A stretch of DNA of 33,117 bases from contig JAHJTO010000007.1 of assembly GCA_018829845.1 (NCBI GenBank), positions 1 to 33,117 of the forward strand. Direction: 5' to 3'. The position numbers and the translations under genes are program-made. Numbering within the stretch: the stretch's first letter is position 1; each line of letters begins with the position of its first letter. The notes beneath the pieces were generated by a model. It was given only the letters and a program-made list of their open reading frames with translations. It was not told the DNA's origin and ran no database searches. Shown here piece after piece: positions 1,023 through 32,930 of this stretch. This DNA is from Nanobdellota archaeon. Lineage in GTDB: Archaea; Nanobdellota; Nanobdellia; Pacearchaeales; JAHJTO01.

Positions 1023-3179
1023 TCATGTCATTCCGCCTATTGCAACCCCTGCAAGAGCAGATAATGAAACTATTGAAATGAAGGCTGCAAGCAAATACAT
1101 TAATATTCCCCTTTTCATGTTCTGGGCAATCTCATACTTCTCTCCCAACTCATCATATCCTGATTCGACTGTTACAAGAGTTATGCTTAGGATATAAATT
1201 ATTTCAACAACATATATTCCAACAATGAGCTGGATGTAATATGGTGGAATCATGCTTGAAATATTAAATAGATCAACCATCTGTCCCATTGTTCCAAATC
1301 CCTCTATTGCCTGTCCTCCTTGAGCATCCATTGCAAAAGTTAATTTATTGAGGATGATTGTGATCATTGCAGATAATCCCACAACTATTCCTGCAAGCAA
1401 TGGAGCAAGGAAAGAAATGTTGCTTTTCATACTGCTTATCACATCTGCAAGAAGATCTCTCAGCCTTTCCTCTATTTTTTGAATATTCTTTACATATTGA
1501 GAAATGCTCATCAATGCATTTGCGGCAACAGTCAATCCCTTCTTTACAGATTCTATGAGAATTTCCATGCTTGTCTTTATCAAGGCCGAAGGATAGTAGA
1601 TTATTGCTCCCCTCTGTCTGTTGAATATTGCTTCCCTAACCGACATTCCAAGCTGCGTGATGTTGGCATTCACAGTTTTGAAAAAACTTTCTGTAGGCGT
1701 CCCCCTCAAAGATTCTGCAACTCTTCCAAATGCCATCTCTGCAGGGATTCCATCCCCTAGTCTGTTTCCTAATTGGAATAATGATGAGGCAAATTCTGAT
1801 TCAAGCTTCTTTGTCTGGTCTCTGGTTTCCAAAAGCTTCTTGCTCTTTGAATTATAGCTGAGATAAAAGAACAATGCCACTCCAAGGGGGATTAACAATC
1901 CCAACAGAAGCGCAATTAGGCCAAATGGCCCAGTAGTCACATCACCAACATTTTTGAAATCAAAGATATAAAATTCACCCATTCCCGGAAATGGAATTCC
2001 TGCAGACAGGAAGGTATAATCTTTCTGCAAACCAATCAAACCGGGAAGAGGAGTATACTGAAACAGAAGAGGAATCATTCCAAGGAGTATTAAAGGTATT
2101 GCAATTGCGAGAGCATTGTAATAATGTTTCTTGCTTTTATAATATCCGTAATCAGGATTCATTTCAAGCAGATCAGATTCCCCATATCCTCCCGGCCGGT
2201 TATTCAGAATATTGCCCGCATAGTAAAATACCAGGAATGGAACAATGATATTGAAGAATAATGCAACATACCACCATCTAACTAAATCAGCAACAAGAGT
2301 TGATGCAAGAGGAAGCAAAGCAATTGCAAGTGTTGGAAGAACGATCCCAAGCATGTAAAGATTTGTCAAAGGAGATTGTATACTGTGGGTGTATTTCAAC
2401 ATCTTGTCATAAACCCCATCAAGTATGACTGACAGAGATTTTTCAAGAATTTCAAGTCTTCTTGATTCGCTTGATTCATACAAGCTGCTTTCAATTAAAT
2501 GGAATGCCTCTACAAATTCTATGCTTGATGATTTCCATTTTTCAAGATAGGCATCCAGAGCAGATTTGATTGTCCTATGTTTTCCAGTTTCAACATCCCA
2601 AAATAATTTTTTCAAATCAAGAGAAAGGGGGGGAGGAAGATGTTCTGATGCAAATTTTATTGCCAATTCAAGATTGCTTGTATGTCTCATGTAAACTACA
2701 ATATAAAGGATACATGGAACCATCTGACTTGAAGCTTTTAATCTCCATTTTTGTGCAAGACTTTTCGGAAGAGTGTTAGTATAATAGTAAACAAATCCGG
2801 CAATCATCAAAAAAAGAACTATGACTTCAATTGGAATAGTTGTTCCGGCAAGATAAAATCCTGCAAATAGCAAAGAGGCAAATAACGCTATTGAAACAAA
2901 TGCGGCAAGGGAAAATGCCGCAGCATCCTGTGGGGTAATTTCCAGATTTGCATCGTCAATATAAGTTTGAAGCCTATCTTCATCTTGCTTTTTCAATTTG
3001 AATTTTATTGTTTTTCCCACACCCCTTGCAAGCCGTTCATACAAGCTGAGAACAGGGACAATTTCTTTTTTGAATTGTAAATATTCTTTGGAATATTTTG
3101 AAGAAGTTTCAGAAGACATCGCCTTCTCTATCTGTCCCCCATATTTCTTTAGAACCTCATTTACCTTATTATCAACCAT
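1023..3179 (-). CDS. FlaJ/TadC-like type II secretion system F family membrane protein with two T2SSF-like regions
   Basis: 718-aa ORF, polytopic; two repeated T2SSF-type modules (around 'HTSNLELAIKFASEHLP' and 'RLGDGIPAEMAFGRVAESL'); adjacent to a FlaI-like ATPase. Confidence 0.8.
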   Translation of the reverse strand: MVDNKVNEVLKKYGGQIEKAMSSETSSKYSKEYLQFKKEIVPVLSLYERLARGVGKTIKFKLKKQDEDRLQTYIDDANLEITPQDAAAFSLAAFVSIALFASLLFAGFYLAGTTIPIEVIVLFLMIAGFVYYYTNTLPKSLAQKWRLKASSQMVPCILYIVVYMRHTSNLELAIKFASEHLPPPLSLDLKKLFWDVETGKHRTIKSALDAYLEKWKSSSIEFVEAFHLIESSLYESSESRRLEILEKSLSVILDGVYDKMLKYTHSIQSPLTNLYMLGIVLPTLAIALLPLASTLVADLVRWWYVALFFNIIVPFLVFYYAGNILNNRPGGYGESDLLEMNPDYGYYKSKKHYYNALAIAIPLILLGMIPLLFQYTPLPGLIGLQKDYTFLSAGIPFPGMGEFYIFDFKNVGDVTTGPFGLIALLLGLLIPLGVALFFYLSYNSKSKKLLETRDQTKKLESEFASSLFQLGNRLGDGIPAEMAFGRVAESLRGTPTESFFKTVNANITQLGMSVREAIFNRQRGAIIYYPSALIKTSMEILIESVKKGLTVAANALMSISQYVKNIQKIEERLRDLLADVISSMKSNISFLAPLLAGIVVGLSAMITIILNKLTFAMDAQGGQAIEGFGTMGQMVDLFNISSMIPPYYIQLIVGIYVVEIIYILSITLVTVESGYDELGEKYEIAQNMKRGILMYLLAAFISIVSLSALAGVAIGGMT

Positions 3180-3343: not shown

Positions 3344-6300
3344 TCAGATTTTGGCCTTTTTGATCTCATTCTTGAACCAATCATTCCAATCCCTAAAAAC
3401 TCTTCTTCCTTCAGGCAATCCCACTTCCTTCGAAACCTTATCAGAAAATTGATGGAAAGCATTATTGCTCTTAACCACAAATGGGGCCTCTATGAGCTGT
3501 GGCATTGAATGTTGTATGGATTGGTTCACAAGTTCTTCTTTTATCCTTGCCCTGAGCGTTATATTGTCCCATATTGCATCCCAGTTTCCTGCCCAGCCTT
3601 TAACACTCCCAGCTATTGATTTTATGATCTCACTTTCCCCATTTATCAAATCAGCAGTAGGTTCTAATTCATCCTTATGAACATTGTATTTCATGAGATC
3701 TGTAAATCCTTTTTCTTCCAAAGGATCTTTTGTCCAATTTTTTCCAACTTCTGTCAAAGAAACAACTCTTTTTTTGCTATGCAATCCATCTGGAGTTTTT
3801 ATTGGATTTGCAACAAGAATAATATCTGTCGCTTTAAAGCTTGTTATTGGAACTCCGAGATCATTAACTACTCTGTCAAATATTGCATAGGGTGATGCTC
3901 CATGTATTGTTCCTGCAACTACATTTGCGAGAGCTCCGATTCTCATTGCTTCATAAAGTGCTTTGGCCTCAACGCTTCTTACTTCTCCAACTATCAAACT
4001 TGAATCTCCAAGTCTTAAACTCGTTCTGATCCCTTCATCAGCAGGCATCTCAGCAGTTTCTTTCAACAAAGCAGAACGGACCTTCATCCTAAGAATATTA
4101 TATCCAATTTTTCTCATCGAATCAACTGGCATTTCCAGAGTGTTATGCGCGACAATATTCTCACAGATAAAATTCTCATTTCCATGAACAGAAATATCAT
4201 AAACATATCCTTCTTCACTGACTTTTTTAGCACTTTTTACCTTATCCCAAAATATTTCCGCTTTAACAACACCTCTTAAACAGTCTATTGGATTTGTATA
4301 GACTCCTTTTGGAATAACTTCCAACATTTTTGTCAAATGAGCCCTCCCTAAATTGTTCTCTCGAATGATATAATCATGTTTGTTAAACTTCTCCCCAAGG
4401 ATCTCACTTAGCTCCTCCTTTACTTCTAAAGAAAGAGGAATAACATCTGAGATGTCATGTGTCTGCAGCCTAGCACATAACTTATCTAACCTTTCTTGTT
4501 TAAAATCTGTTAAAAATCCTATATTTTCTTTGAACTTATTTATCATTATTGTAGAACCAATTCGGCAAGAGAGGGCATTATCTTTTCCATAAGGGGTATT
4601 TTTTGGCTCTAAAGGTACGGCAGATTTTCTTAATATAATGCCAAACCTTAATAATAAACTTGTAATACCTTCAACTAATTCTTTTGAGCAAGAAGAAAAT
4701 GTAACTTCTTTATCAGAGGCACATCCATCTCCGCTGAAGAATCCTTTTAACAGCGCTCCCGCTTGCTTGTCTGACAAGTTATAAGCCCACTCTGGGAGCC
4801 CTTTGGTATATGAATTGCCATTTAATCCCAGCAACTTCTGCATGATCTCTTTCAATAAAGAAGAATTTATCATTGAAGAAAACTTATCAGAATGAATTTT
4901 CACACTAAAACCCAGCCTATCTGCTATTTTCTTTACGACTTCTTTATTTTCCTTTTCCTCAACTGAAATGATAACGCTTCCTTGATCATAACAGCCATCA
5001 GCCAGCCATAATCCGATAAAATTCAAAAACATTTCATCAAGTTCGATGATTATGGGGATCTTCCCAGACGCCCCGTCACCCTTCAAATACAAGTCTTCAT
5101 TGTTTATTTTTTCTTTTATTTTTTCAAAAATTCCCAAAGGTAAAATTTTCTTGATTGTCCAATTCTGAATTGTAGATTTTTTATATCCTAAAGAATAACC
5201 CAAATTAAACAACTCTTTTCTATTTTCTTTAACATAAATCTCAATACCTTTTCCTAAAACAAACAAATTTTTATTGATTTTCTTTAGTGTATCTATATCT
5301 TCAAGTAAATTAATGTTTTCTAAAGAATTCGTAAAAGGTAGTCTTGAGGGAATTGCTATAAAATCTCCTTCCTTTAACTCTTTGGATTTTATGGCCCTCA
5401 AAATCTTTTTTTCATCTAAGGTAAACAAAGAATGGTCTTCTGTAACCTTGACTTTCTTTCCAGAGGTAGTTCTGATTTCATAAATTGGTTTATTGACCTT
5501 ATGTCTGATAAATTTGCTTGCTTTGGACAAAACAACCTTGCCCTTACCATTCACAGAAAAAATTTCTACATTATCAACATTTATCTCCTTCTCTCTTCCA
5601 TCAATATCAAGAAAACCATTCTTCTCTATTTTCTCGTCTATAAGCTTGCCTATTGTTGTCTTTCTAAACCGGCCATTCTCTTTAACAATCATCCCAGCAT
5701 CTCCCGTAACACTGTCTTCAATAACTATTACTCTCGTTCTTGGCATTATCTCAAGCATTAACGATCCAAGCAAAGATGTATTATGAGCAAAAAACCCATT
5801 TGCTACAAAATTCTGATATGGCTCAACCGTAAAGTCATAAACCCACTTTTCTTTTGAGTCCACTTTTTCAACACTCTTAACCCTATCCCAGAAAACGTCA
5901 GAATTTGCGAGGTTAAAAGAGTTATTTAAAATATCTTTTGATCCCTTCGAAATAATTTTTTTATGAATCTCCTTTATCTTCTCTGAAATGAGTTTTTTTG
6001 TTTTTATCCTGGGTTTATAGACATTATTAAAAAAGTTGGAAATTGTACCAATAGACAGGTCTCCAGTCAAGTTAGAATTTTGGATGTTTAGAATCTGTCT
6101 AAACTTTTTAAATAAGCCCATATCAGAATTCTCATCCAGGTGAGATATTTCATTATTTAATTTTTCAATCTCATTAAATCTCTTCTGATAAAACTCGACT
6201 AAAATTTTAAACCATTTCCTTGTAGCATTATACTGGTTGTTTTCATGTGCCCAATAATCCCTGGTAGTTAATTTTCTTACGCCCAGGGGGTTAACTCTTA

Positions 6301-8815
6301 GATTTTTCCTCAATTCTTTCAGTAAAAAATTTCCGCCAGGGATGATGTCCATATTGGTATTATCTATCCAAGAACGCATAGTCAGGTTCTCACTTCTTTT
6401 TTTCTTGCTAGGATGATTAAACCCTATTTTTTTGATAAATTCACTAACAAATTGTCCCCTGATGAATATTTTATAATAATCTCTTCCTTTAATTTCTCTT
6501 TTTTTTAAAAAAGAAATTACTTCAAATCTCAATAAGGTCATTTGTAATTGCTTAGCCATTATCTTGCTGGCTGTCGCCAGTTCTATCTCTCTTTTATCAC
6601 CATAAATAGAACCATCGCAGTCAAAATATGCTCTTAAAAATGCCGCTAATATTTTATTGTTGCTTTTGAGAATTTTAGATGGGATTTGTACAATACTTGC
6701 TTTGTTTCCCATAGGAATTTCAAAAATTCTACTTAATGCCCTGTTTAATATTCTAGAAGTTATCTGAATGTTGTAAGTATTTCTGCTCTTTATTTCCCTT
6801 GTTCTAACTGAAAAAAGTTTTTTAGATAATTCTGCAAATCTCATCCTAAGAATAATGTCAGAATTAGTAAATTCTATTTTATATTCATCAATGTGCCCAT
6901 CTCCAATTAAATAACCCAAAAATTCTGCCAACATCTCATTAACTTTTTCTGGAAAACTGATTTTTGTGGCATTTGTCCTTATTTGAGAAATTATTTCAGC
7001 TGCCTCTGGAATTAAAACTGTCTCTGTTTTTACATCAATCTTTCTGGGAGAAGCAATTAATTCTCCAGCTTTCAAATCTCCAGCATTGGTAGATTTCAAA
7101 TTGTTATCAAAAGTAAAATATGGATGCTCTGGAGTTGTAATTATTTCCTTTCCAGAATTAGTAGTTATTTTAACCAAAGTTTTGGGAGCTTCTCTTCTCC
7201 AAAAGGCATTCACTGTTTTGTTGTCAGATTTATAGTTCTTATTGTTTAAGCTAAGAACATTTATTTTAGGATTTGGATAAAAAAGATAACCGTCTGAAAT
7301 TTTTTCTTGTTTTCCGTGCTCTAATTCTTTTATAGCCTTAATGTCGCCATTTGATAATTGGATTAAACTGTCTCCTGAAACACACTTTCCAGCACTTCTT
7401 GTTCCCGCAACAAGTATTGTTCTCCCGCCATCAACTAAAAAACTCATCAGACCTGCAGAAAGAGGATTCATCATTTTATTTTTTATAAAAAGTGGAAGTG
7501 TCCAGGGCATTTCCCTGTGTCTTCTGAATGCATATGCTAGCCCATCCGGACTCAGAGGTTGCTGGATTATTGCTATTCTTGCCCTCATGTTTTCAATTTC
7601 AAGATCAGTATCAAGAACAGGGTTTGCCTCATCAAGAGGTCTTCCGCTCAACATCCTGAATCTTGCTGCAAATGCATCCGCATCTTCTATTGAAGGGATT
7701 ATATTCGTTGAACATTCATCAAACTTTTGATGCCTTACAAATGCTGGAACTTGCCCTATTGGAGAATTAAGAACAATATCCTGGAGATTCTCATCCTGCA
7801 AAAGAACTTCAATTAGTCCGAATCCGATTGTATGTCTTACGAGAATTGTTGCAAGCTTGTTCAATTGCCTGTAATTCAGAGAAATTTTTTTGGTTTCTGC
7901 GAGTTCCTGCAGAAGATCCCTTGAAATATTGAAGAATATCTGCCTTGTTCTTTGAGGATCAGTAAATTCCTCCGCCTTGGGCCTATGTTCTACAAGAACA
8001 TTTCTTGCCAAGTCAATTAAACTATAAAATTCTTCTTCAAGGGCAAACTCTGGGGGATTTAGATGGTAGATTGGTTGATTGACGTTGGGCATCTTCAGAA
8101 TTGAAACAGTGCTTTTATCATATCCCTTCTCAATAGTATATTCATCCAGCAATTCCGCTCCGTGTGGAATGGAAGACATGAGCCTTGTGAATGTAAAATT
8201 TGGAACCACATCCGGCCTAAAGAATCTTTTGTAAATTTCTCTATTTCCAACATGGAATGCGGTCAGATATTCTTCCGAATCTGTTACTAACCTTGTTTTT
8301 TCAAGCAATTCCATCATCTTGCTAAGAATCTTTATAAAATTATTCTGACAATGCCTGCATTCAGCCGGCAATTTCTCCAAATTTATTTTTTCTTCCCTCA
8401 GTATTCTTTTTGTTTCAACATAACATCCTATCGGATCCTGCTTAAGAAGAGTGAGAACAAGCCACCTTATGGAATTATAATGGTCTGGAAGACATTTTGT
8501 GCATGATTGAAATGGTGCTAGCTTTTTAGATGAAAGAATCTTTTCCTGTTTTACAAGATAATTGTAAAGATTAGAGATTTCCAATAGTAATGATATTTGG
8601 GAGAAAGTATAAACATAATTTTTTTGTTGCACAAAAACTATCTTGCTTACCCTTGGACTTTCAATCAAACTGTCAACAGTCCTTGCCATTACAAGGCTTG
8701 AATCCGCAAGAGATGGAACCTTTGGAAAGCCCACATAATTGATGTACATCACATCCTGTCCAGACTCTCTCTGAACCTCATAATCATATAATTTTGTACC
8801 TTGTTTGAATAGCAT
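3344..8815 (-). CDS. FlaI/VirB11/GspE-like secretion ATPase precursor containing two inteins (mature exteins 477 + 22 + 265 aa)
   Basis: Walker A split as GTRSAGK|T; 'VIVIED|TLEMPVDSMRKIGYN..MKVRSAL', 'LIVGEVRSVEAKALYEAMRIGALANVVAGTIHG' typical of FlaI-like ATPases; CxxC...CxxC in the N-extein. Confidence 0.9.
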   Translation of the reverse strand: MLFKQGTKLYDYEVQRESGQDVMYINYVGFPKVPSLADSSLVMARTVDSLIESPRVSKIVFVQQKNYVYTFSQISLLLEISNLYNYLVKQEKILSSKKLAPFQSCTKCLPDHYNSIRWLVLTLLKQDPIGCYVETKRILREEKINLEKLPAECRHCQNNFIKILSKMMELLEKTRLVTDSEEYLTAFHVGNREIYKRFFRPDVVPNFTFTRLMSSIPHGAELLDEYTIEKGYDKSTVSILKMPNVNQPIYHLNPPEFALEEEFYSLIDLARNVLVEHRPKAEEFTDPQRTRQIFFNISRDLLQELAETKKISLNYRQLNKLATILVRHTIGFGLIEVLLQDENLQDIVLNSPIGQVPAFVRHQKFDECSTNIIPSIEDADAFAARFRMLSGRPLDEANPVLDTDLEIENMRARIAIIQQPLSPDGLAYAFRRHREMPWTLPLFIKNKMMNPLSAGLMSFLVDGGRTILVAGTRSAGKCVSGDSLIQLSNGDIKAIKELEHGKQEKISDGYLFYPNPKINVLSLNNKNYKSDNKTVNAFWRREAPKTLVKITTNSGKEIITTPEHPYFTFDNNLKSTNAGDLKAGELIASPRKIDVKTETVLIPEAAEIISQIRTNATKISFPEKVNEMLAEFLGYLIGDGHIDEYKIEFTNSDIILRMRFAELSKKLFSVRTREIKSRNTYNIQITSRILNRALSRIFEIPMGNKASIVQIPSKILKSNNKILAAFLRAYFDCDGSIYGDKREIELATASKIMAKQLQMTLLRFEVISFLKKREIKGRDYYKIFIRGQFVSEFIKKIGFNHPSKKKRSENLTMRSWIDNTNMDIIPGGNFLLKELRKNLRVNPLGVRKLTTRDYWAHENNQYNATRKWFKILVEFYQKRFNEIEKLNNEISHLDENSDMGLFKKFRQILNIQNSNLTGDLSIGTISNFFNNVYKPRIKTKKLISEKIKEIHKKIISKGSKDILNNSFNLANSDVFWDRVKSVEKVDSKEKWVYDFTVEPYQNFVANGFFAHNTSLLGSLMLEIMPRTRVIVIEDSVTGDAGMIVKENGRFRKTTIGKLIDEKIEKNGFLDIDGREKEINVDNVEIFSVNGKGKVVLSKASKFIRHKVNKPIYEIRTTSGKKVKVTEDHSLFTLDEKKILRAIKSKELKEGDFIAIPSRLPFTNSLENINLLEDIDTLKKINKNLFVLGKGIEIYVKENRKELFNLGYSLGYKKSTIQNWTIKKILPLGIFEKIKEKINNEDLYLKGDGASGKIPIIIELDEMFLNFIGLWLADGCYDQGSVIISVEEKENKEVVKKIADRLGFSVKIHSDKFSSMINSSLLKEIMQKLLGLNGNSYTKGLPEWAYNLSDKQAGALLKGFFSGDGCASDKEVTFSSCSKELVEGITSLLLRFGIILRKSAVPLEPKNTPYGKDNALSCRIGSTIMINKFKENIGFLTDFKQERLDKLCARLQTHDISDVIPLSLEVKEELSEILGEKFNKHDYIIRENNLGRAHLTKMLEVIPKGVYTNPIDCLRGVVKAEIFWDKVKSAKKVSEEGYVYDISVHGNENFICENIVAHNTLEMPVDSMRKIGYNILRMKVRSALLKETAEMPADEGIRTSLRLGDSSLIVGEVRSVEAKALYEAMRIGALANVVAGTIHGASPYAIFDRVVNDLGVPITSFKATDIILVANPIKTPDGLHSKKRVVSLTEVGKNWTKDPLEEKGFTDLMKYNVHKDELEPTADLINGESEIIKSIAGSVKGWAGNWDAIWDNITLRARIKEELVNQSIQHSMPQLIEAPFVVKSNNAFHQFSDKVSKEVGLPEGRRVFRDWNDWFKNEIKKAKI
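4142..5713 (-). mobile_element. Intein 2 (524 aa, Ser1 ... HN/T+1) with LAGLIDADG homing endonuclease, inserted after VIVIED
   Basis: Starts SVTGDAGMIVKENG, block B-like VTEDHSLFT, 'FIGLWLADGCYD' and 'LLKGFFSGDGCAS', ends YVYDISVHGNENFICENIVAHN|T. Confidence 0.93.
5780..7384 (-). mobile_element. Intein 1 (535 aa, Cys1 ... HN/T+1) with LAGLIDADG homing endonuclease, inserted in Walker A between GK and T
   Basis: Starts CVSGDSLIQLSNG, block B-like TTPEHPYF, LAGLIDADG-like 'FLGYLIGDGHI' and 'FLRAYFDCDGSI', ends VYDFTVEPYQNFVANGFFAHN|T. Confidence 0.93.
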
Positions 8816-10142: not shown

Positions 10143-10631
10143 CTATTTCTTAGTAACTGTCCATGACACTATTCCTGCAATTATCAAAAGAACCACCAAC
10201 CCATAGAATTGGGGGTTTGTGAAGAAATCAAAAGCTGCTTGTCCTTCTGTTGAGAAATATCCTTGGCTGACAAGGGGCCCGAATACATTTATTGCAGAGA
10301 TTATGAATATGATTAAAATTATGATTGAAATGATTATTGCAATCAATGGGCTTTTTACAATATCATCTATCTTTCCCCTTACAAATGTAATTGTTAAAAG
10401 TATGAAAAAAACCATGAATATGAATATCGCCACCCATGGAATTGTGAGGGCTGTGAACTTTGTTGCCATTGGGCTAAGAATGAATATTACAGCAACAACA
10501 ATGCTCAGGGTGAAATGGACATATTTATTGTCTCCCAAAACCCTTGTCTTTGCAAGAAGAGCATAAACTAATGTGAATATGAAAAGATATGCCAGAAGGG
10601 GCATGACATATGCTAAAACAAGATTTGCCAT
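10143..10631 (-). CDS. Polytopic membrane protein, paralog 1 of a tandem trio
   Basis: 162-aa ORF with hydrophobic segments; shares 'PLLxxLFIFTLVYALLAKTRVLGDNK' with the two neighbours. Confidence 0.8.
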   Translation of the reverse strand: MANLVLAYVMPLLAYLFIFTLVYALLAKTRVLGDNKYVHFTLSIVVAVIFILSPMATKFTALTIPWVAIFIFMVFFILLTITFVRGKIDDIVKSPLIAIIISIIILIIFIISAINVFGPLVSQGYFSTEGQAAFDFFTNPQFYGLVVLLIIAGIVSWTVTKK

Positions 10632-10672
10632 TGATATATGAACATAAGAGCGCTTTTAAATTTTATTAGAAT

Positions 10673-11245
10673 CTACTTAATTTCCTCTTCAGTGAAATAT
10701 TTTGAGAATGGAAGATGGATCCTTTTTGCATGTTCTGCTTCATCTGCAGCAGGAGTTGAAGTTACTGCCCCTATAACTATCAAAATGAAAATGATCGGAA
10801 TAAGCCAGTAAGAATTGTTATACCACCAGGTGCTTGAGAAAATCATGTTATATCCTGCAAAATAATCTGCGGCTCTAGACATCACCCAAAGGAAAATGAT
10901 TATTCCGCCCCAAAGGGTTATGCTTTGAAAACTCTTCCCAGGTCTTCCCGAAACTAGCCCCACGATTAAAAGGAAAGCAACGAGGATCGCAATCCCCAAC
11001 CCCACATTTGAAAATAAAGGAAGGAAGAATGCAGAAACTTCTGGATTGCCTATTGTAAAGAAGCTGATTATCAAGGCAGCAATTGCATCAATTTCTTTTT
11101 TTCCAGTAAGAACTTTTGTTCTTTGAAGAACAGAATATATTATAATGAATATAAGAAGCATTGGAAGAATCATATCAAACATGCCTATGCTGGACCATTG
11201 CATAGCCATGGTCCTAAAATCCATCATTCCACCAAAGTATGCCAT
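10673..11245 (-). CDS. Polytopic membrane protein, paralog 2 of a tandem trio
   Basis: 190-aa ORF; 'LPMLLIFIIIYSVLQRTKVLTGKKEIDAIAALIISFFTIGNP'. Confidence 0.8.
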   Translation of the reverse strand: MAYFGGMMDFRTMAMQWSSIGMFDMILPMLLIFIIIYSVLQRTKVLTGKKEIDAIAALIISFFTIGNPEVSAFFLPLFSNVGLGIAILVAFLLIVGLVSGRPGKSFQSITLWGGIIIFLWVMSRAADYFAGYNMIFSSTWWYNNSYWLIPIIFILIVIGAVTSTPAADEAEHAKRIHLPFSKYFTEEEIK

Positions 11246-11268
11246 TGTTTCTTTTTCTCCTTATTTTA

Positions 11269-11787
11269 TTATTTATCTTTATGTCCTGGTTTCTCTTCAC
11301 CGCCGCCAGAAACGGCAATTGCAATTATGGCCACTATTGCTCCAACGAACAAAATCATCTGAGTTATTTGAGCAGAGAGTACTTGATCTAGATTTATTTT
11401 ATCGAGTATTCCTGTTGAAGAGGTTACAGCCCATACTGCTGTTGCAAGAAGTACTACCCCCAAGAATATCATAAAGAATTTTTTCAGACCTTCAGACCAT
11501 TTTGCTTCCACACTTTTTCCAGCAAATCCGAATACAAGCATCCAGGCAAAGAGTATTATTAATACAACTGCAATAAGAGGAATGAAGCTTTGTAAAGTTC
11601 CTACGGCTGCTGGGACACCCACTGCAATAAGTGAAATAACTAATGCAACTATTGCATGTATGTCTTTCTTTTCTCCAAGGACCTTAACCTTTTCCAGAAT
11701 CGCAAACACAACTGTGAAAACCAAGATGAATGGCAGAATTACATTTGTGAAGAACTCATTTCCTAATAGGCCAATTTCAAGTGCCAT
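11269..11787 (-). CDS. Polytopic membrane protein, paralog 3 of a tandem trio
   Basis: 172-aa ORF; 'LPFILVFTVVFAILEKVKVLGEKKDIHAIVALVISLIAVGVP'. Confidence 0.8.
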   Translation of the reverse strand: MALEIGLLGNEFFTNVILPFILVFTVVFAILEKVKVLGEKKDIHAIVALVISLIAVGVPAAVGTLQSFIPLIAVVLIILFAWMLVFGFAGKSVEAKWSEGLKKFFMIFLGVVLLATAVWAVTSSTGILDKINLDQVLSAQITQMILFVGAIVAIIAIAVSGGGEEKPGHKDK

Positions 11788-28238: not shown

Positions 28239-31200
28239 TTATATAGAACAGAATCTTTCTGGGCCGAGAGTCTTTAGCAATGCTAACTGCAGTTTCTCCC
28301 TGTTCACCTCCCCATTCAAGCTGAATAGATCTTGAATCCTTGTATCTTTGCCCGTAAGATTTTTTATTGGTTCAGTGAACGCTTGGCTCATAGAGCTCAC
28401 CATGCAGGATTCTGGCGCCACATTGAGGAAAAGATCTACACCTTCTTCAGCCCTTGCAATCGCTTCCCCAATATAAGGCAGCAGCTCACCATGCGGCTTT
28501 AAATAATAATTAAGCTTTCTCGCTTTTTCAAGTATCTTGGCAGTATCATGGGGGGCTTCAATTTTTGCTGCTGAATAAAGAGGATTGATAAAAATCTTGC
28601 GAAGTATTTTTTTCAGGAATGTTAAAAGAAAGATTTTTTTCTTTCTATCTTTAATTTGTCCAGTTAAATTATCTTTTTCTTTTTTGTCATTACAGCCATC
28701 AAGTAACTCCTTTGATAGAATTATATCCTCCTCCATGTTAAGACGGCCAAGCTCAAGAAGAAGTTCAAGATAGCACCAAATAGGGGAATATGTCAGTTCA
28801 AATGAGCCAAAGCCAAGAGAATCTATAATCTCTTTGAATATCTCCTCAGCCTGAGCAGCGCGCATATACGCTTCCCCTTCTATATGTATGCTGATTTTAG
28901 GCTTATGTTTTTGCTTTTCTGCATTGAGCCATTTCAATGAGAAATTTTTCAGAAGCTTTCTATAGCCATTATTATTATATAAGCCATAACAGAAATACTT
29001 AGCAGCGGTGGCTGCAATCTTTGATTTTCCTAGACTATTAGTTATATTTAACATTAATGGGTCTGGTTTGATAGATTCTTCCATTATCTTAAAAATATTT
29101 TTCTTCAGGCCCATATAATCTGACATGAATTCTTCATACTCTTTACAAGAACGGCATACATGGCCTGCTTTCAAAAGAATCGAGTGTAATATGCCTTGTA
29201 GAATTAAGCCCTGAAAAGACTGTATTAAAACCCATTCTTCAATCCCCACATTATAGCCTTTATTTTCATGTGCTACCATAAGTTTGATAGTTTCTGAATC
29301 TTTCGTCCTGCCAAACTTCTTGTGCAAAAACATCTTATGAAGTTCGCAATATTGGCCTTGTCTGCATGGCCCTGTCCCTTTATTATCAAATATAAGTATT
29401 CGTATCTTGTCTTTTACAAGAGGGTCATTTCTTTTTTTTCTTTCAATAAAATCTTCAACAGCAAGAAGGATGTCTGCATATGCTGCTGCAAAAGGGGCGC
29501 ATACAGAATCTCCTACATGCTTTCTTCCAAGCATCACTTTTTTTCTGAGATCGTAGGATTCATCTTCATAGTTGTCAATAGCCGTTATGCCTGCTCCCCT
29601 AAACACAGAAGTTATTGTTCTGTTTTCATGTAGCGTAGGAAAATAAACTACATCTGTGTCTTTGTTCAGACTTTCACACTCAAAATTATTAATAACACTT
29701 ATTTTGAATTCTTCTTTGGAATATTCTTCATGAAGTTTTTTTTCTATTTGTGTAATAAAGGTATTTACCCTGTTTTCCAAATGCGCCAATTCTTTTATCA
29801 TAGCATCGGATTGTATGAGCAGATTTGGCTTTTTTTTCGCTATCTCTTCTGCCAAAGGCAAAGTCATAGTATCCGGACCGCATCTGAAGGTGGATACTTG
29901 CACAACGTTAATTGATGTGTTTGTCAAATCTTTTTCTATTTTCTCAATGAGCTCTCTCATCTTTTCGTTGATTATTACCTTATGCAGATTTTTGTTTGTT
30001 ATTCCATCTATTTTAGTTGTTATATCATGGGGATTCCTCCAATATAAATGAGAATATTTCTTGTTCAAAGCCGATTCAACAGCATAAGAAGGTATTGCCA
30101 CAATTCCCTTATCCTTAAGCAGTTTTCCCACATGGCTGTCATATATTCCTGGATTCAAGATATATTCCCTTCCGCAGACTATTGCGATATTTTTTGAATT
30201 TTTGATTGCATAATCTATGTACTCTGCTGTCTTCTCGGCCACTTCGGATTTCAATTTCAAATTTTCCTCAATTGCTGCTTTGACCGCGGCGGTAAAATCC
30301 TCCCTACTAACTTTCAGGTTATAAAAATCAAAAAGCTCTTTCAGATAACAATATAATTGCGCAGAGATATGCCCCGCATCAAACTTTTTAAGACTCAGTG
30401 GAAGGACAATAAATTTCGCTTCTGGATGTTTTATTTTTGCATGATGCATCGCTATCAGCACCCCTCCCTGATTGGTAGTGCATGTCCTTCCAAGGCTTGC
30501 ATCGGATGGAAGGAAATCTATCTGGGGGATGAGAATGATGCTGTGGGGCTCGCCCGCAAGCCTTGCATACTGGCCCGTTGCTCCAATGAGGGGTGCGCAC
30601 ACATCCACCGTAAAATTAGACTGCCCGTCCAATATATCTTGCTCTTTGATGTTATCAACATAAACATTTATTCCTAAATTTTCGAATATTTTGCTTAAGA
30701 AATAGGATTGTTCAGATACAGCAAAGCTTCTTGGTATTACAAGCCTGTTTTCTGCATTGCTTCTTGGCAGCTTTGAATCTATAAATTTCCATATTTCCTT
30801 ATAAGAATCAATTTTAAGTGTTTCGTCTCCTTTTTGCATGTTGAGGTTGTTAACTGCAGTGCAACCTCCAAGCATCACAGACATTTTTCCTTCTTTGGTG
30901 TCAAGCGCAAGCATTGTTCTTGCACAACAGGAATTGCTATCTCCGCATGCAGCCCCTCTGCAGAAAAAGATTTTCTTGCTAGACTTTATATTAAGCAAGT
31001 CATCTATTTCAATCTCTGAATTAATTATAGCACTATCTTTTATTGATTTCACAAGCCCGATGCATGCGCGATAACCAGGATATGGCGGAATAATACAATG
31101 CATTTTTGATATTTGTTGTATTCTATGCGTCACTACAAGAGGTAAAGGATCGCTCTGCATTGTCTGGCCATGAAGAAGTACTACCGCATTCTGTGGAAAA

Positions 31201-32930
31201 TCTATTCTGCCCCATAAAGTTCTTGCCATGTTTTCTACTATAGCATAATTACATGAAGCCAAGATTTCCTCTTTAGGATAACCTTCTGCCTGCATTTTTT
31301 TTGCATTTTCCATAAGAAAAACCGCGCAAGTAGCATTTATTTCATATCCTTTCTTTGCAGAAAATGCAAGATTGCATGCTTCCTGAATTGATTTTATGTC
31401 AAAAAGAGATTTTAGTGTATCCATAAGGCTTCCTGTTCCTGCAGAACACTTCAAGTTCATGGCATTATCAAACAGTTCCTCTTTTTTTAGTGCAATGATT
31501 GAAACTTTGGTGTCTTCTCCACCTATATCCACAAGTACGCAAAAATCTTCATTTATCTCTTTAAAATGCTCTTTTAGTTTTTGGATATGCTCTTTTGCAT
31601 ATGAAATGCCTCCATGCACATGTGCATAATTTTCTACTTGTGTGAATATCCTGCCTTCAAGCTTTGGGAACACCTTGCTTAAGACTTTTTGCACCTGGTA
31701 TCTGCCGCTGCCTGTCAAACCTATATGCTGTACATTAAGCATGGTTATCCCTTCGGACTTGAGACCTGAAAAGAGGCGTTTTATTGTTTCTACGGTATCT
31801 CCATGATTATCACATAAACCAAGTTTTAATATATCCTCATTTCTTGCATCGCATATAACTATTTTGGCCATTGTTGAGCCTGCATCGATCCCGATATTTA
31901 CCGGAATTTTTTGGAGTTCTTTGTCTTTTATGTCTATAATATCCCCTTCATCCACCCTATTGAAAAGCATATTCTCCATGTATTTCTTTTTTAATTCGAT
32001 AAAAGAAGGATATTCGGAGAGTATTTCTGGTTTTGCAATTTTTTCCTCTTGTTGCCTCAAATTTGCATAACCTAAACTTTTAACTAATGATTTCATACCT
32101 TCGATATTTGCAAGCTGCTTTTTATCGTAAAATACTTTTTTCACGCCAATACTTTTTAAATAATCTTCTGCGCAATTTCTTACATACTCCCACATAAAAA
32201 CTCTTCCTGTAAGAAGGACAATGTCAGTATGGGGAAGCATTTTTTTGCATGATTTCATAACTTCAGATTTTAGAGTTACGGCAAGAGCATAATCTAAGGG
32301 GATTCCCTGATTTTTATCCGATATTGTAGCAGAGGAGCTGAATACTCCACATCTGTCTGCTCTGATTGTTACTGCTTTTCTCTTTTCTTCCCCTTTGCCT
32401 CCCAAGTAGTCTTTAAGAATTTCATCAACTTTTTCTCGCTTTATATCAAGCTTTTCAAGAATTCTGCTTATATTTATTCCAGAACCGGCTCCACATTTTG
32501 GATTTATAACAAGCAAATCATTCAGAAGATTTCCTTTATCATCTATGCATATGGCGGCATATCCTGACGCAGAAAGTTCGATTATGCCATAAATTTTGGC
32601 TTTGTTTAAATAACTTTTGTTATATTCTTTAAGATATTTTTTTGCAGCTTCCCATAAAGCGGCTGAAGGAGATATAATTTTGCCATTTGAAAGAGTCTTT
32701 CTTATTATATTAGCCATTTTTCCTGTGATCAAAAGCTTCCTGTTTTTGTCTTTTAACTTCTCTAGAATTCCATGCTCAAAAAAAAGTTTCTCTGCTTTAT
32801 CTTTATTATTGATTAAAATTCTTTTTTGAGTGCCTTCTTTTGAGTGAACAACCTGGATGTGTTCGATTCCTGCATCTATAAACCAATATTCCTCTGCTTT
32901 CGCCCTTTTTTTTGAATTTCTATTTTCCAT
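28239..32930 (-). CDS. BadF/BadG/BcrA/D-type acyl-CoA dehydratase activase-like protein with two ASKHA modules plus DUF2229-like C-terminal regions
   Basis: 'NIGIDAGSTMAKIVI', 'LTGSGRYQVQ', 'VDIGGEDTKV', 'KCSAGTGSLMD', 'TCAVFLMENAKK'; N-terminal module with 'KCGAGSG' and 'RCGVFSSSATI'; C-terminal 'VCAPLIGATGQY', 'GDSVCAPFAAAYAD', 'FDNKGTGPCRQGQYCELH'. Confidence 0.85.
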   Translation of the reverse strand: MENRNSKKRAKAEEYWFIDAGIEHIQVVHSKEGTQKRILINNKDKAEKLFFEHGILEKLKDKNRKLLITGKMANIIRKTLSNGKIISPSAALWEAAKKYLKEYNKSYLNKAKIYGIIELSASGYAAICIDDKGNLLNDLLVINPKCGAGSGINISRILEKLDIKREKVDEILKDYLGGKGEEKRKAVTIRADRCGVFSSSATISDKNQGIPLDYALAVTLKSEVMKSCKKMLPHTDIVLLTGRVFMWEYVRNCAEDYLKSIGVKKVFYDKKQLANIEGMKSLVKSLGYANLRQQEEKIAKPEILSEYPSFIELKKKYMENMLFNRVDEGDIIDIKDKELQKIPVNIGIDAGSTMAKIVICDARNEDILKLGLCDNHGDTVETIKRLFSGLKSEGITMLNVQHIGLTGSGRYQVQKVLSKVFPKLEGRIFTQVENYAHVHGGISYAKEHIQKLKEHFKEINEDFCVLVDIGGEDTKVSIIALKKEELFDNAMNLKCSAGTGSLMDTLKSLFDIKSIQEACNLAFSAKKGYEINATCAVFLMENAKKMQAEGYPKEEILASCNYAIVENMARTLWGRIDFPQNAVVLLHGQTMQSDPLPLVVTHRIQQISKMHCIIPPYPGYRACIGLVKSIKDSAIINSEIEIDDLLNIKSSKKIFFCRGAACGDSNSCCARTMLALDTKEGKMSVMLGGCTAVNNLNMQKGDETLKIDSYKEIWKFIDSKLPRSNAENRLVIPRSFAVSEQSYFLSKIFENLGINVYVDNIKEQDILDGQSNFTVDVCAPLIGATGQYARLAGEPHSIILIPQIDFLPSDASLGRTCTTNQGGVLIAMHHAKIKHPEAKFIVLPLSLKKFDAGHISAQLYCYLKELFDFYNLKVSREDFTAAVKAAIEENLKLKSEVAEKTAEYIDYAIKNSKNIAIVCGREYILNPGIYDSHVGKLLKDKGIVAIPSYAVESALNKKYSHLYWRNPHDITTKIDGITNKNLHKVIINEKMRELIEKIEKDLTNTSINVVQVSTFRCGPDTMTLPLAEEIAKKKPNLLIQSDAMIKELAHLENRVNTFITQIEKKLHEEYSKEEFKISVINNFECESLNKDTDVVYFPTLHENRTITSVFRGAGITAIDNYEDESYDLRKKVMLGRKHVGDSVCAPFAAAYADILLAVEDFIERKKRNDPLVKDKIRILIFDNKGTGPCRQGQYCELHKMFLHKKFGRTKDSETIKLMVAHENKGYNVGIEEWVLIQSFQGLILQGILHSILLKAGHVCRSCKEYEEFMSDYMGLKKNIFKIMEESIKPDPLMLNITNSLGKSKIAATAAKYFCYGLYNNNGYRKLLKNFSLKWLNAEKQKHKPKISIHIEGEAYMRAAQAEEIFKEIIDSLGFGSFELTYSPIWCYLELLLELGRLNMEEDIILSKELLDGCNDKKEKDNLTGQIKDRKKKIFLLTFLKKILRKIFINPLYSAAKIEAPHDTAKILEKARKLNYYLKPHGELLPYIGEAIARAEEGVDLFLNVAPESCMVSSMSQAFTEPIKNLTGKDTRIQDLFSLNGEVNREKLQLALLKTLGPERFCSI

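Follow-up and report, generated by a model that had tools for sequence, protein, structure and literature searches.

Two putative homing inteins interrupt neighboring nucleotide-binding motifs of a secretion ATPase gene in a DPANN archaeon

A secretion ATPase gene of a DPANN archaeon (Nanobdellota) carries two inteins 22 codons apart. We are confident that these are two independent homing inteins, and that they occupy neighboring conserved sites in a gene that is an intein hotspot. The pair looks like an ordinary mobile-element invasion and not like a conserved on/off switch. The window, that is the whole stretch of DNA analyzed here, is 33,117 nucleotides long and contains the gene as one open reading frame of 1823 codons (8815-3344, minus strand) with no interruption. 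The features are as follows.

3344..8815, minus strand: intein-bearing secretion/pilus ATPase gene (T2SSE superfamily), one continuous ORF, 1823-aa precursor
7385..8815, minus strand: N-extein, 477 aa, ending ...VAGTRSAGK, which is Walker A through its Lys
5780..7384, minus strand: intein 1 at site a, between the Walker A Lys and Thr; 535 aa, first residue Cys
7121..7138, minus strand: intein 1 block B (TTPEHP)
6890..6919, minus strand: intein 1 first LAGLIDADG motif (LGYLIGDGHI)
6605..6637, minus strand: intein 1 second LAGLIDADG motif (LRAYFDCDGSI)
5714..5779, minus strand: middle extein, 22 aa, TSLLGSLMLEIMPRTRVIVIED
4142..5713, minus strand: intein 2 at site b, between IED and T of the Asp box; 524 aa, first residue Ser
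5429..5446, minus strand: intein 2 block B (VTEDHS)
4988..5017, minus strand: intein 2 first LAGLIDADG motif (IGLWLADGCY)
4718..4750, minus strand: intein 2 second LAGLIDADG motif (LKGFFSGDGCA)
3347..4141, minus strand: C-extein, 265 aa, with Walker B (LIVGEVRS), site c (unoccupied) and the region of the His box
1023..3179, minus strand: multi-span membrane protein, 718 aa, adjoining the ATPase gene

Intein 1 comprises precursor residues 478-1012, between GTRSAGK and TSLLG, and intein 2 residues 1035-1558, between VIVIED and TLEMP. These boundaries, the lengths and first residues of the two inteins, the 22-codon spacing, and the terminal HN, +1 Thr and two LAGLIDADG motifs of each agree with the original prediction, as do the totals of 1059 aa of intein and 764 aa of predicted mature ATPase (spliced in silico). 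Both inteins have the splice residues of class 1: Cys1, block B TTPEH, the end ...FFAHN and +1 Thr in intein 1, and Ser1, block B VTEDH, the end ...NIVAHN and +1 Thr in intein 2. Pfam reports three Intein_splicing stretches (PF14890, 2e-65) and three LAGLIDADG_3 stretches on the precursor. The PF14890 match points to a Hint splicing fold, and the AlphaFold models (mean pLDDT 83.1 for intein 1 and 88.7 for intein 2) resemble full-length and mini-intein structures. The top Foldseek matches are full-length intein endonucleases, TliVMA for intein 1, and for intein 2 PI-PkoII, TliVMA and PI-PfuI. Both inteins look complete in the models, with a splicing-plus-LAGLIDADG architecture, and each of their LAGLIDADG motifs has its catalytic acid. 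Their DNA has a G+C content of 31 and 33%, versus ~38% in the exteins.

The host belongs to the secretion ATPase superfamily, taken here as GspE/PilT/FlaI/CpaF/VirB11 (PF00437): an orthologue of the gene (L218) matches PF00437 (T2SSE) above the cut-off (2.7e-14), and Walker A, the Asp box and Walker B are all present in the T2SSE domain. The best solved relatives of the orthologue are A. fulgidus GspE2 (2OAP), CpaF and FlaI. The original prediction had called the protein a secretion ATPase and had spoken of FlaI sites. The first term stands and the FlaI part does not, as an intein-free orthologue scores 123 bits against the FlaI equivalog NF058587, whose curated cut-off is 550 bits, and the match to the NCBIfam TadA model also falls far under its cut-off. 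Because of these scores, we regard "FlaI" as too specific and describe the host as a secretion ATPase of FlaI/TadA-like type, whose N-terminal region is long. Alignment to 2OAP and CpaF places site b in the Asp box as defined for the T2SSE/FlaI/CpaF superfamily, which sharpens the earlier description of a disrupted conserved acidic motif and supports the reading that both inteins interrupt nucleotide-binding motifs. At site a the +1 Thr is the Walker A Thr itself. The P-loop Thr is a magnesium ligand, so the residue would act first as a splicing nucleophile and later as a magnesium ligand.

The adjoining 718-aa membrane protein matched no family above cut-off; judging from its position and character, it is presumably the FlaJ/TadC-like platform partner of the ATPase. 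Near the ATPase gene, three consecutive small multi-span membrane proteins (10143-11787, minus strand) had no Pfam or NCBIfam match. The window also encodes a 1563-aa fusion of an acyl-CoA dehydratase activase/BcrAD-BadFG protein with DUF2229 (28239-32930, minus strand), an unusual protein to find in a DPANN genome of small size.

Comparison with intein-free orthologues supports precise excisability. The in-silico spliced 764-aa protein aligns with them end to end at 60-69% identity, and in 48 distinct orthologue sequences covering both sites, gaps or insertions at junction a or b are almost absent, while the Walker A GK and the Asp-box Glu are invariant. The in-frame insertions thus correspond to precise empty sites at both junctions, as expected of class 1 inteins, and they are not chance insertions because the intein-free orthologues run colinear through both. 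In 9 of the 48 sequences, including L003 and L219, the Asp-box Asp before site b is Gly (EG then T), and another orthologue (L224) has Val at +1 of site b; these are possibly intein-resistant alleles.

The gene is widespread and the inteins are rare. An orthologue was detected in 364 of 377 relatives in a phylum sample, and the ATPase has a match in each of the 55 order relatives, almost always in an intein-free frame of ~750-800 aa. Among the 364 orthologue-bearing genomes, 24 have any detected intein (~7%, leaving >90% without), with site a occupied in 3, site b in 18, a third site c in 7 and two sites in 4; these counts are lower bounds, as distant inteins and contig breaks hide some. Site c lies directly after Walker B (GEVRS), and all three sites fall inside ~80 codons. 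Every pairwise combination was found: a+c in G066, b+c in G261, G384, L131 and L161, and a+b again in L142 (a MAG labeled Nanohalarchaeota) and L169 (a MAG labeled Micrarchaeota). Site c is occupied alone in G331, G150 and G068. Split matches among the orthologues, checked for hidden inteins, mostly came down to a contig end or a gene divided between contigs, and a partial site-c case (G339) was the sole addition. We rejected an assembly chimera as the source of the pair in the window, given the continuous ORF, the normal extein identity to orthologues and the same a+b pair in two unrelated MAGs.

We also rejected the 22-codon spacing as exceptional. For instance, a CDC48-like gene (L092, G074:C39:37000-46000) has several inteins, two of them just 17 aa apart (TTMDGLKSRGKVVVIGA), and an MCM gene (L085, G105:C4:55000-64264) has three full-length inteins in a 2187-codon frame, with a 27-aa extein between the first two. 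The window's own genome, 0.85 Mb and fragmented, has inteins in at least 10 other genes, including SRP54, MCM, PolB, GyrA, GyrB, RNR, RadA, RtcB, a Lhr-type helicase and a HerA-like protein.

Site-a inteins were found in the orthologues G066 (693 aa), L142 (702 aa) and L169 (536 aa), and a degenerate site-a version of 326 aa, its endonuclease largely lost, in G334 (L097). Relatives of intein 1 also occur in other NTPases (MCM, SMC, SRP54, V-ATPase A and GTPases), and in 25 of the 26 loci with a readable start the intein immediately follows the Walker A lysine. Site-b inteins are far commoner, with relatives in dozens of named MAGs labeled Pacearchaeota, Woesearchaeota, Aenigmatarchaeota, Diapherotrites, Micrarchaeota and Nanohalarchaeota; the closest named ones are labeled Candidatus Pacearchaeota or Nanoarchaeota. 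A family of paralogous ATPases, with an extein identity of only ~25-30%, carries relatives of intein 2 at this Asp-box position as well, and degenerate alleles occur there too (G050, L077). One paralogous pilus/secretion ATPase (L082, G333:C15:1-9500, frame from ~2389) has three inteins in a 2046-codon frame, located before SRVNATY, in the Asp box and, in the His-box region, before SGHPGMATMH. Contigs labeled Parcubacteria and Dojkabacteria (L181 and L194) also carry a site-b-type intein; they are probably mis-binned archaeal DNA, because the L181 intein is identical to that of the archaeal L180.

The history of intein 2 combines inheritance and transfer. The distances among intein-2 sequences follow those among their exteins (Mantel rho 0.54), so part of the signal is vertical. 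Of 30 well-supported intein splits, 11 are contradicted by well-supported extein splits. The intein 2 of the window is sister to the L123 intein (69% identity with flanks), and the L123 extein, from a single-intein gene, groups with L124, L125 and L129. Because the host gene of the sister allele belongs elsewhere on the extein tree, the phylogenies show that intein 2 moved horizontally. Comparing the window with L123, we saw no rise in flanking identity around site b that would mark a co-conversion tract, so the transfer was not recent. Both catalytic acids are kept in 79 of 79 intein-2 relatives (nearly all at site b), although part of the first LAGLIDADG motif was built into the search pattern, so that conservation there was partly selected for. 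In three closer intein-2 pairs (85-97% identical) the endonuclease dN/dS is 0.11-0.34, and these low values suggest purifying selection on the endonuclease region.

These observations can be read as follows. Two canonical class 1 inteins would have entered the gene of a FlaI/TadA-like hexameric secretion (pilus) ATPase in separate events. Each brings a LAGLIDADG endonuclease, which would cut an empty allele at the DNA encoding its own motif (Walker A for intein 1, the Asp box for intein 2); repair of the cut would copy the intein into that allele. After translation, Cys1 or Ser1, the block B His, the C-terminal His-Asn and Thr+1 would drive excision, and the rejoined exteins would form the active 764-aa ATPase. 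Doubles probably arise by sequential invasion, since neighboring inteins of haloarchaeal MCM (CDC21; inteins a-d) hinder each other's homing into empty alleles (PMC10643990). Inteins would sit in nucleotide-binding motifs not as a switch, but because these are the most conserved DNA targets and imprecise loss there would be lethal.

Double occupancy in the phylum sample exceeds independence (4 observed versus 0.54 expected among the 364 genomes, P ~0.001, with relatedness ignored). Besides host susceptibility, a benefit of some kind or co-homing could account for this excess. A broader reading, which we consider improbable, is that DPANN secretion ATPases form a multi-site hotspot in which almost every signature motif of the nucleotide-binding core (Walker A, the Asp box, after Walker B and, in a paralogue, the His box) has a homing intein family of its own and doubles are favored beyond chance, perhaps through mutual persistence or through co-option that delays ATPase activation.

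The excess of doubles is also what cooperative co-homing would give, with the inteins traveling as one unit and their close spacing selected. The recurrence of a+b in L142 and L169 fits this, as does the finding that the nearest site-a relative of intein 1 is the allele of the double-intein L142 gene (46% identity). However, the nearest relative of intein 2 sits in the single-intein L123 gene and not in L142, the a+c and b+c pairings exist too, and the haloarchaeal MCM neighbors interfere with each other's homing (PMC10643990). We therefore consider co-homing unlikely.

The original prediction had proposed that splicing could act as a two-step switch, which we would now state as redox-, temperature- or substrate-responsive splicing of one or both inteins gating assembly of the active pilus ATPase. 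Both interruptions do fall in nucleotide-binding motifs, and by analogy it is plausible that the unspliced or half-spliced ATPase is inactive; the P-loop intein of P. horikoshii RadA is a precedent for an inactive precursor (cited in PMC6195587). Conditional splicing is known for that RadA (PMC5790916) and for the P-loop intein of the two-intein M. smegmatis DnaB (PMC6195587). Only intein 1 starts with Cys. Its one other Cys (position 256) lies inside the second LAGLIDADG motif, and we found no conserved partner cysteine among site-a inteins, so a redox switch through the cysteines of intein 1 is possible on paper but unsupported. The conditional DnaBi1 and RadA inteins have no endonuclease domain, whereas both inteins here look complete. 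A switch would also need selective retention of the pair, yet the pair is absent from nearly all orthologues, a+b is scattered across phyla, every other pairing of a, b and c occurs, and intein 2 moved horizontally. The kept catalytic acids, the rarity of the pair, the recombined pairings and the horizontal transfer argue for homing parasites, and we give the switch very little credence.

Least probable of all is degeneration of one intein or both, which would leave a pseudogene or a source of cleavage products only. Decayed alleles are known at site a (G334, L097) and at the paralogue site b (G050, L077), but here nothing breaks the ORF of 1823 codons, no splice-block residue and neither endonuclease acid is missing, and conservation of the extein is good.

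We return to two independent homing inteins and compare them with known systems. As in haloarchaeal MCM a-d, several inteins occupy neighboring conserved sites of one ATPase, including one after the Walker A Lys, with patchy occupancy, horizontal transfer and doubles above chance; MCM double inteins are likewise commoner than expected (PMC10643990). The difference is that the host here is a DPANN secretion/pilus ATPase and that the sites are Walker A, the Asp box and after Walker B. The same survey covered two DPANN genomes, with no multi-intein gene in them, and notes that the VMA-b inteins of archaea are likewise positioned at the Walker A Lys (PMC10643990). M. smegmatis DnaB also has two inteins (DnaBi1 and DnaBi2), one of them in the P-loop, and the P-loop Ser/Thr doubles as the +1 nucleophile of DnaBi1. 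Unlike the inteins here, which look class 1 with apparently complete endonucleases, DnaBi1 is a redox-sensitive class 3 mini-intein with no endonuclease (PMC6195587). The Thermococcales inteins TliVMA and PhoVMA (7qss, 7qst, 7qsu) are the closest solved structures to intein 1; they are also full-length LAGLIDADG inteins, in another host protein and at ~20% identity. The M. jannaschii KlbA intein (2jmz) resides in a secretion-type ATPase homologue. It is a class 2 intein with Ala1 (PMC7765530), in contrast to the class 1-type inteins described here. Searches of the open-licence literature turned up no account of inteins in pilus ATPases of this kind, which is weak evidence of absence.

A hotspot with several intein sites in the secretion ATPases of DPANN is a modest novelty: it adds a pilus/secretion ATPase, with hosts across the DPANN archaea, to the multi-intein hotspots known from MCM and DnaB. 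The natural 22-aa middle extein may be of use for peptide-insertion chemistry. The natural alleles, which are empty, singly occupied at a, b or c, or paired as a+b, a+c and b+c, offer a ready-made set for asking whether neighboring inteins compete or cooperate.
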